Positions 3,486-42,962 of a stretch of 54,459 nt of DNA are shown here, piece after piece. Each line of letters starts with the position of its first letter. Position 1 is the stretch's first letter. The notes below the pieces were generated by a model, which saw only the letters and a program-made list of their open reading frames with translations, had not been told where the DNA came from and did no database searches. A program made the translations under genes and the position numbers. The stretch is taken from positions 1 through 54,459 of IMG/VR virus record IMGVR_UViG_3300047673_000357, one strand, 5' to 3'. The DNA comes from a virus.

Positions 3486-3842
3486 TCAGCGGGCTGAGTG
3501 CCAGGGGTCCGCGAGATAGCGCGTCTTGGCCTCCGCGTGAGCGCCGTTCGCCGGGTAGGCGATCCGGGTATTGCACGGCGAGCACAGTAGCCCGCGCACG
3601 CCACCGGAGTTGGGGGCGAAGCCGTACTCGTAGTCGTGGTCGATGACCAGGTAGCCGTGGCTGGTCTCGGCACCGGGGACGCGACAGATCTCGCAGCATC
3701 CGTCAGACCGCAGCAACAGGGCGGCGTACTCGGTGCAGCTCATGCCGTACTTCCGGTGGCGGTGGGGACAGACGCGGTGTGCGTCGTCACCCACGCACAG
3801 GACTTCTGGTCTGGTGTTCCGGGCCCACGCCCGGGTGGTCAT
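3486..3842 (-). CDS. Endonuclease VII-like HNH nuclease
   Basis: 118 residues from ATG at 3842, which overlaps the stop of the minus gene upstream (ATGA). It shows the recombination endonuclease VII pattern: CCEIC, then a VIDHDYEYG-like core and RGLLCSPCNT, giving two CxxC pairs for zinc around a His/Asp active-site strand. Phage T4 endonuclease VII resolves branched DNA before packaging. This copy sits just before the terminase genes but on the opposite strand, so a packaging-linked role is plausible and unproven. A longer in-frame start exists at 3986 but would overlap the neighbour by 150 bases. Confidence 0.8.
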   Translation of the reverse strand: MTTRAWARNTRPEVLCVGDDAHRVCPHRHRKYGMSCTEYAALLLRSDGCCEICRVPGAETSHGYLVIDHDYEYGFAPNSGGVRGLLCSPCNTRIAYPANGAHAEAKTRYLADPWHSAR

Positions 3843-41093: not shown

Positions 41094-41719
41094 CTACCGC
41101 GCCCACCCTCTTCGACACCACCACCCCGGCCGCACCCGCGGCGGCCGGACTCCAGATCCCCAAAGTCATCGGCCTCGACGTCGCCATGGGCATCTCCGGC
41201 ATCGCCGGCGAAGGCTGGACCGACTACGTCAAAGCCAAAGGCTCAAGCCAGCACTCCCGCTTCGAGCAGCAACTCGCAGGCATCGCCGACCACACCCGCC
41301 ACGCAGACTTCGCCGTCATCGAGGGCGCCGCCTACGGGCACAACAACCAGGGCGCCGACGCACTCGCCGCGATGCGGTGGATGGTCCGCCACGACCTGTG
41401 GAAGCGGCGTATCCCCTACGCCGTGGTCACCCCCGGACAGCGAATGATCTACGCGGTTGGTACTGCCGCACCCGTCGACCCGGACACCGGCCAGCGCCTC
41501 AAGGGCACCGGGCTCAAGGGCATCCTGCGGCAGGCCGTCGCCGACACCTACGGCATCACGACCGAGGGCGACGCGAAGTACGACCAGGCGGACGCCTACA
41601 TCCTGATGGCGATGGGCCTGCACTGGCTGGGCCACCCGCTGGCTGTGGTGCCGGACACCCACCGGCGGGCGCTGAAGTCGGTGCGGTGGCCGGAGCGCGA
41701 GGCGGTGACCGCGCGATGA
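41090..41719 (+). CDS. RuvC-like Holliday junction resolvase
   Basis: 209 residues from GTG 41090. RNase H-fold motifs: VIGLDVAMGISGIA (first Asp), FAVIEGAAYG (Glu), and YDQADAYILMAMGL (late Asp pair), with the LKGILRQAVADTYGI helix between. It would resolve branched recombination intermediates. Gene order after the exonuclease and annealing protein fits a recombination module. Confidence 0.82.
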   Translation: MTTAPTLFDTTTPAAPAAAGLQIPKVIGLDVAMGISGIAGEGWTDYVKAKGSSQHSRFEQQLAGIADHTRHADFAVIEGAAYGHNNQGADALAAMRWMVRHDLWKRRIPYAVVTPGQRMIYAVGTAAPVDPDTGQRLKGTGLKGILRQAVADTYGITTEGDAKYDQADAYILMAMGLHWLGHPLAVVPDTHRRALKSVRWPEREAVTAR

Positions 41720-42636
41720 CCCCTCGCATCGGTTCCTTCTGCTCCGGCTACCGCGGCCTCGACATGGCCGTCGAGCAGGTCTTCGGCGGCACCACCGCGT
41801 GGGTGTCCGACGTCGACCCCGGCGCGAACAAGATTCTCGCCCACCGCTGGCCGGCCACACCGAACATCGGTGACCTCACCGCCGCCCGGTGGGAGGACGT
41901 CGAGCCCGTCGACATCGTGTGCGGCGGCTACCCCTGCCAGCCGTTCTCCACCGCCGGCAAGAGGAAAGGAACGGCTGATGTCCGGCACCTCTGGCCCTTC
42001 ATTGCCGGTGCCCTTGGGGTACTTCGACCCCGAGTCGCGATCTTTGAAAACGTCGCGAACCACCTTCGGCTCGGCTTCGACACTGTCCTCCGCGACCTTG
42101 CCGACCTCGGGTTCGATGTCGAGTGGTGTGTTGTACAAGCGGACGAGGTCGGCGCTCCCCACCAGCGGCGCCGCCTCATCTTCGTCGCCACTGCTGCCGA
42201 CGCCGCGGACCTCGGACACCAATGGGCCCGGAGCACACGGGAGCGGAGGACTGGACCTGCGGACGGCCGTCTCGCTGCTGCCGACGCCCCGGGCCTCGGA
42301 CGGGGAGAAGGGCGGCCCGAACCAGCGAGGCTCGAAAGGGGACCTGGCGCTGCCAGCCGTGGCCTACAGGATTGGGGCCGGTTCGCCCCTGCCATCGCGC
42401 GGTGGGAAGAAGCGACGGGCCGTCCCGCTCCCTGGGCAACTGACGATCGAAGCAGGCTGAGCCCCGCGTTCGTCGAATGGATGATGGGCCTCCCCGCCGG
42501 CCACGTCACCCAGGTGCCCGAACTCACCCGCACCCAGCAGTTGAAGGCCCTCGGCAACGGCGTCGTCCCGCAGCAGGCGGCCGCCGCGATCCGGCTGTTG
42601 GCCGCGCGCGCCTTCGATGGGGCGGTGGCGGCATGA
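41716..42636 (+). CDS. C5-cytosine DNA methyltransferase with overprinted target-recognition region
   Basis: 306 residues. Motif I GSFCSGYRGLD, motif IV GGYPCQPFS with catalytic Cys74, motif VI FENV (110-113), motif VIII QRRRLIF (150-156), and C-terminal motif IX/X QLKALGNGVVPQQAAAA. The stretch about 160-230, where the target-recognition domain lies, is Arg/Gly/Ala rich because another gene occupies frame +1 here (41978-42460). It would methylate phage DNA against restriction. ATGA coupled to both neighbours. Confidence 0.88.
   Translation: MTPRIGSFCSGYRGLDMAVEQVFGGTTAWVSDVDPGANKILAHRWPATPNIGDLTAARWEDVEPVDIVCGGYPCQPFSTAGKRKGTADVRHLWPFIAGALGVLRPRVAIFENVANHLRLGFDTVLRDLADLGFDVEWCVVQADEVGAPHQRRRLIFVATAADAADLGHQWARSTRERRTGPADGRLAAADAPGLGRGEGRPEPARLERGPGAASRGLQDWGRFAPAIARWEEATGRPAPWATDDRSRLSPAFVEWMMGLPAGHVTQVPELTRTQQLKALGNGVVPQQAAAAIRLLAARAFDGAVAA
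41978..42460 (+). CDS. Gene nested inside the C5 methyltransferase gene
   Basis: 160 residues in the +1 frame relative to the methyltransferase. ATG 41978 has its own strong site GAGGAAAGGA (41961-41970) 7 bases upstream. The product carries PLGYFDPESRSLKTSRTTFG, a Ser/Thr-rich middle and two internal repeats starting LLPTPRTSD and LLPTPRASD. I recognise this DPxSxSxKTS ... LPTPxASD style from phage proteins annotated near cytosine methylases. Both frames look constrained, so this is true overlapping coding. Function unknown, perhaps a methylase partner. Confidence 0.6.
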   Translation: MSGTSGPSLPVPLGYFDPESRSLKTSRTTFGSASTLSSATLPTSGSMSSGVLYKRTRSALPTSGAASSSSPLLPTPRTSDTNGPGAHGSGGLDLRTAVSLLPTPRASDGEKGGPNQRGSKGDLALPAVAYRIGAGSPLPSRGGKKRRAVPLPGQLTIEAG

Positions 42637-42962
42637 GCCAGTACACCGGAGCCGTCCCCAACACCAAGCGCCGCGACCCCGTATGGCAAGACGACGCGGT
42701 CTGCCGCAAAGACGACGTCGACAAGGAACTGTTCTTCCCCGACCGCTCCGACAAAAAGGCCATCGCCGAAGCCCGGAAGGTCTGCTGGACCTGCCCCGTC
42801 ATCCAACGCTGCCTGGAGTACGCGTTCCGCGAGAAGGAAGACCGCGGTACGTGGGGCGGTCTCACCGAGTGGGAACGGCGCGCCAAGCACGGCCGCAGCC
42901 GCAAGGACACCGGACGCGGTGCGGGCATTCAGGCACCGGGCCGCCGCAGGGCCGCCGTATGA
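42633..42962 (+). CDS. whiB-like: WhiB-family iron-sulphur regulator
   Basis: 109 residues. Four Cys (24, 51, 54, 60) in the WhiB C-xn-C-x2-C-x5-C pattern ligate a [4Fe-4S] cluster, followed by GTWGGLTEWERR, the WhiB turn that contacts sigma factor region 4. The basic C terminus (KHGRSRKDTGR) would bind DNA. Actinophage WhiB proteins can alter host gene expression, as TM4 WhiB does in mycobacteria. Confidence 0.9.
   Translation: MSQYTGAVPNTKRRDPVWQDDAVCRKDDVDKELFFPDRSDKKAIAEARKVCWTCPVIQRCLEYAFREKEDRGTWGGLTEWERRAKHGRSRKDTGRGAGIQAPGRRRAAV

Follow-up and report, generated by a model that had tools for sequence, protein, structure and literature searches.

A conserved gene in the +1 frame of a phage C5-cytosine methylase gene, proposed to encode the second half of the enzyme

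Long, deeply conserved gene overlaps on the same strand are rare. The C5 methylase M.EcoHK31I is encoded by a large gene that contains the small one in a different frame, and activity in vitro requires both. Multispecific phage C5 methylases carry exchangeable module arrays between motifs VIII and IX, in a single methylase frame. The two polypeptides of M.EcoHK31I divide the motifs, the larger one holding I-VIII and X and the smaller one IX, and the predicted target-recognition region has been placed in the large chain (PMC3404938). The split C5 methylase M.AquI has an alpha subunit with motifs I-VIII and a beta subunit with the distal variable region and motifs IX-X (PMC3404938). A hidden HNH endonuclease (ShiLan domain) is encoded in a second frame inside an actinophage methylase gene (PMC11855218). 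The latter is an inserted homing element in the third frame, whereas the gene described here is a conserved +1 gene lying over catalytic motifs.

The window is the whole stretch analysed, a viral contig of 54,459 bases. It encodes a phage capsid protein, a YqaJ-type recombinase and a WhiB-like protein, in keeping with an actinobacterial phage. In architecture, its methylase locus resembles M.EcoHK31I in that two polypeptides would form one C5 enzyme and a second coding frame is nested in the first, a plan that also fits the lower-GC and bacterial loci found. It differs in that the outer chain also has motif IX, while the inner chain carries repeat modules instead, and conservation points to the small chain as the recognition region here, rather than the large one. 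As in the multispecific phage enzymes, a module array lies between motifs VIII and IX, but in the inner frame. M.AquI is approached by other loci (L023, L031-L036, L122), although with overlapping frames; in the window, alpha carries the C-terminal motifs and one gene lies inside the other. Two-polypeptide C5 methylases are already known; a search of the open-access literature gave no report of a nested methylase gene as a widespread arrangement.

Layout of the two overlapping genes

The outer gene (41716-42636, plus strand, 70% GC) encodes a protein of 306 amino acids, the proposed alpha subunit. Profile matches to PF00145 (E 1e-30, residues 5-163) and phrog_363 (E 5.5e-67, residues 1-295), together with a match to M.HhaI (E 1e-11), indicate that it is a member of the C5-cytosine DNA methyltransferase family. 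The chain has motifs I-X, and the catalytic motifs I, IV (PCQ), VI (ENV), VIII, IX and X were recognized from the sequence in this order. Motif IV, GGYPCQPFS (41923-41949), lies shortly 5' of the inner start. Motifs VI (ENV, 42046-42054) and VIII (QRRRLIF, 42163-42183) are within the overlap, motif IX (RLSPAFVEWMMGLPAGHV, 42454-42507) begins at the inner stop, and motif X (QLKALGNGVVPQQA, 42538-42579) follows. The WhiB-like transcription factor gene (42633-42959; PF02467, E 2.7e-20) starts on the final bases of the methylase gene.

Counted from the outer ATG at 41716, the +1 frame has no stop between about 41720 and 42457, a stretch of 246 codons from stop to stop. Within it, the inner gene (41978-42460, plus strand), encoding the proposed beta subunit, has 160 codons from the ATG at 41978 to the TGA at 42458-42460. 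A Shine-Dalgarno-like sequence, GAGGAAAGGA (41961-41970, plus strand), precedes the ATG with a 7-base spacer. It falls within the outer residues KRKG, which are written here with the rare synonymous codons AAA and GGA. The predicted translation starts with MSGTSG, and the predicted peptides include TSDTNGPGAHGSGGLDLR. An N-terminal domain, for which a dedicated HMM was used (FDPESRSLKTS ... SGSMSSG, 41999-42208), lies over the outer motifs VI-VIII. Two repeat modules follow, LLPTPRTSDTNGPGAHGSGGLDLRTAVS (42191-42274, from a module family of n=16) and LLPTPRASDGEKGGPNQRGSKGDLALPAVA (42275-42364, n=39). The tail (42365-42457) ends in PGQLTIEAG, a C-terminal motif common to relatives, and similar PGQLTI-like ends were found in 25 of 174 distinct inner ORFs.

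The inner protein matches the family phrog_1008, annotated as "DNA methyltransferase", with an E-value of 9.3e-18 (residues 2-120 against positions 62-181 of 329). The outer C-terminus, with motifs IX-X, matches positions 223-321 of the same profile, so that in the window the C-terminal third of the family sits in the outer frame. Since one profile covers both the inner protein and the outer C-terminus, both pieces would be one polypeptide in other phages. Searches gave no match of the inner family to PDB sequences, no credible Pfam match and no PADLOC hit for the inner protein. Judged from the sequence, motif IX is absent from the window's inner chain and present in the outer one.

The first-pass annotation had placed a 160-codon gene with its own Shine-Dalgarno site at these coordinates, had pointed to DPESRSLKTS, LLPTPRTSD and LLPTPRASD in its translation, and had stated that the outer frame keeps motifs IV, VI, VIII and the C-terminal motifs. 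All of this was borne out, and the protein search that it proposed for the inner product led to phrog_1008. Its view that the methylase target-recognition region is overprinted by a second gene needs revision. The overlap is real and includes the VIII-IX region, but it also covers motifs VI-VIII, and the inner frame itself appears to be the recognition region.

Constraint on the inner frame

Openness of the frame in the window was dropped as coding evidence. When synonymous codons of the window gene were redrawn, at least 160 codons stayed open from the inner start with P 0.41, and when the outer codons were permuted, the longest +1 ORF had P 0.07, values of little weight in a GC-rich gene. 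The start site is more informative. At D88, the codon GAT, which makes the inner ATG, is used in 14 of 15 relatives compared with 55 of 353 occurrences elsewhere (p 3e-10). At K84, AAA is present in 13 of 15 relatives and in 4 of 36 elsewhere (p 4e-7), and at G85, GGA in 14 of 15 and in 134 of 604 elsewhere (p 1.5e-8). All three choices are silent for the outer protein. A single silent change, GAT to GAC at D88, would remove the inner start and leave the outer protein unaltered.

Stops in the +1 frame number 0 per 1723 codons in the overlap, compared with 40 per 1916 before and after it. The outer GC3 falls from about 0.93 to 0.72 and then to 0.60. Outer third codon positions are inner second positions, and they vary less in the overlap: in the synonymous-site test suggested by the first-pass annotation, four-fold-site diversity in the close clade is 0.256 in the overlap against 0.39 and 0.45 outside it (p 5.5e-5). 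Across all 62 divergent outer sequences no difference was detected (p 0.26), probably owing to saturation, and the test is therefore valid only in the close clade.

Amino-acid identity in the module 2 family (n=39) is 0.77 in the inner frame, compared with 0.40 in the methylase frame and 0.41 in the unused third frame; for the module 1 family (n=16), the values are 0.82, 0.47 and 0.48, respectively. Variability in the two widespread modules peaks at inner codon position 3 (0.52 and 0.46). In the repeat region, conservation of the methylase frame thus does not exceed that of the third, unused frame. Over the motif region the signal is moderate, with a pairwise inner identity of 0.656 observed against 0.560 in outer-only simulations and p<0.05 in 53% of the pairs. 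Because the relatives are related sequences rather than independent samples, the p-values are optimistic, though the signals agree. The inner frame is under coding constraint and has a conserved start site. The earlier claim of constraint in both frames stands over motifs IV-VIII and fails in the repeat region, where only the inner frame is conserved.

Distribution and movement between frames

The set of loci consisted of IMG/VR loci fetched by the inner or the outer protein and six named phage records. Wherever the inner N-terminal domain was detected, it lies in the +1 frame of motifs VI-VIII (109 of 109 loci). When genomes were scanned with an alignment of the outer protein, 80 loci were obtained; they come from many phyla, one archaeon included. 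A search for relatives without an open inner frame, the refuting outcome named by the first-pass annotation, instead found a +1 ORF of at least 216 nt within the gene in 80 of these 80 outer-fetched loci, and of at least 345 nt in 77. This count describes the class and not all C5 methylases, as the query alignment came from the same class. These loci often carry motif IX (LNPxWVEWLMGxPxGWT) in the inner frame, with none found in the outer frame. Fetched by phrog_1008 instead, 32 of 32 genome loci have the inner gene nested in the +1 frame of a methylase, and no free-standing inner gene is present among them. The profile matched 71 of the 72 inner translations scanned; in evenly drawn genomes, it was found in 14 of 299 Pseudomonadota and 7 of 296 Actinomycetota, and in 0 of 14 control genomes.

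Nested ORFs without their own annotation are present in Lacticaseibacillus phage R23.9 (203 codons), Acinetobacter phage ABMM1 (298 codons), a Bacteroides fragilis plasmid (177 codons) and plasmids of Salmonella, Paenibacillus and Megaera. None of the nested public records examined annotates the inner gene separately. For the named lower-GC records, the permutation P for the nested ORF ranges from 0.0002 to 0.014. Judged by these sequence comparisons, the same nested arrangement is conserved across phages and bacteria of many phyla.

The position of the modules and of motifs IX-X varies among the loci. In type A, represented by the window, alpha has motifs I-X and the inner chain the N-terminal domain and the modules. 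In type B (L023, L025, L031-L036, L054, L056-L057, L060-L061, L112, L122), alpha ends after motif VIII, and the inner frame carries motifs IX-X. Type C (L020, L022) has motifs I-IV fused to the inner frame, with motifs VI-X in a separate ORF. Type D has part or all of its module array in the methylase frame (L018, L038, L041, L046, L052, L106, L121, L123), or the whole enzyme as a single ORF with the modules between VIII and IX and no detectable +1 inner domain (L045, L104). The order in these single-frame enzymes is VIII, modules, IX-X. In contrast to the window, L129-L133, L140 and many genome loci have motif IX in the small frame and lack it in the large one.

On a tree of 100 methylases (FastTree, moderate support), 10 rows have modules in the methylase frame, which takes 5 state changes, and 16 rows have motifs IX-X in the inner frame, which takes 8. 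Well-supported branches force at least three frame changes for either label. The single-frame enzymes nest inside the nested state, which is commoner in the sampled set. The modular array between VIII and IX is itself variable, with 59 distinct arrays in 95 loci under coarse clustering. Array variation between close relatives would be compatible with a changeable target recognition.

Several loci show further peculiarities. In L017 (2215-3492), the inner ORF has a LAGLIDADG-like insertion, AWLAGLFEGEGYITLRL, between the N-terminal domain and the modules, and unexplained insertions occur among the modules of L008 and L110. The methylase ORF of L007 (2526-3827) stops at 3684-3686 and motifs IX-X resume directly after in the same frame, so this copy is possibly broken or read through. 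An in-frame version of the inner N-terminal domain in L104 and L045 (WPRAGFVSRSGVVWE) looked plausible by eye, but its HMM match was not significant and it was rejected. In L130 (981-985, ATGAATG) and L133 (1272-1276), the outer and inner start codons are 4 bases apart, and one ribosome-binding site could thus start both frames.

A proposed two-chain enzyme and its alternatives

We regard it as probable that the locus encodes one C5 methylase as two polypeptides from overlapping frames, with the nested beta completing the recognition side. The window is best read as encoding a C5 methylase made of two polypeptides, like M.EcoHK31I, in which beta would correspond to the region between motifs VIII and IX. 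The outer gene would make alpha, with catalytic motifs I-VIII and, in the window, also IX-X. The inner gene would be translated separately in the +1 frame, from its own Shine-Dalgarno site and ATG. Its product would consist of the N-terminal domain over motifs VI-VIII and an array of "LLPTPxxxD" modules, the latter being the variable region of the enzyme between VIII and IX. Beta would bind alpha and complete the DNA-recognition side, and the outer frame across the modules would be mainly an open linker reaching motifs IX-X. The main argument for a beta subunit, and for a probable yes to the first-pass annotation's question whether the inner protein partners the methylase, is that modules and motifs IX-X move between frames in different phages; the simplest account of such repeated movement of domains between overlapping chains would be that the two chains cooperate. 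Translation in the cell, an alpha-beta complex and a role of the modules in target recognition are inferred. Most likely, the hidden inner protein makes up the enzyme's second half.

An independent product, such as an anti-restriction or regulatory factor that merely shares the methylase DNA, appears unlikely to us. The window's outer chain, with motifs I-X, could be active alone, and the inner N-terminal ORF is kept in 8 of the 10 loci with later modules in the methylase frame, which would leave room for a separate function. However, the enzyme's motif IX is in the inner frame in many loci, motifs IX-X and the modules switch frames, the inner gene was never found without a methylase among the 32 genome loci, and a single family, phrog_1008, takes in both the inner sequence and the methylase C-terminus. 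A programmed frameshift that leads from the outer gene into the inner frame, which would give a fused methylase without separate initiation, is less probable still. The domain order of L104 and L045 is the one expected of a shift product, but within the window's clade synonymous sites preserve the inner ATG and its Shine-Dalgarno site. Moreover, the conserved inner domain starts upstream of motif VIII, and a frameshift there would lose motifs VI-VIII. Scarcely any weight is left for a chance open frame in GC-rich DNA, with the inner similarity a by-product of that of the outer protein. Taken by itself, the open frame of the window (P 0.07-0.41) would be compatible with it, yet it is already contradicted by the conserved start codons, the position-specific conservation in the modules, the lower-GC loci (P down to 0.0002) and the +1 ORF in all outer-selected loci.

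The origin of the frames would differ along the overlap. Motifs VI-VIII are universal in C5 methylases, which suggests that the outer frame is ancestral over them and therefore older. For the stretch that runs from the modules to motif IX, the inner frame probably came first and the outer frame is the newcomer, because the inner frame carries conserved sequence and, in many loci, motif IX. It is conceivable, with the balance somewhat against it, that these loci form a pan-bacterial C5 class encoded by mutual overprinting, the inner frame having been invented over VI-VIII and the outer frame being a passenger from the modules to IX, and that module shuffling in the hidden frame changes targets. 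If so, phages could alter the sites they methylate and keep the same catalytic chain. Should activity depend on beta, the cloning, modelling and specificity assignment of many phage and prophage methylases would have been done with only half of the enzyme.

Structure predictions were of low confidence. The AlphaFold model of a motif-IX-type inner protein has a mean pLDDT of 61, and the modules of the single-chain enzyme L104 are below 50, which leaves a target-recognition fold unsupported. Foldseek with the L104 model returned only known C5 methylases such as M.HhaI.

A motif resembling sliding-clamp-binding sequences, Q[LM]x[LM]F, is present in 19 of the 174 inner ORFs (shuffled mean 0.5, maximum 3). 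It lies near the N-terminus in L166 (inner residue 11), L172, L185, L186, L193, L199, L207, L208, L214 and L215, and at the C-terminus in L065, L075 and L078. In five of the 19 the sequence is QMDLF and falls within the N-terminal domain, so that these may be unrelated. A possible role of beta is to tether the enzyme to the replication clamp; in the window, the inner C-terminus (42431-42457, PGQLTIEAG) holds only PGQLTI, a weaker form of the motif.
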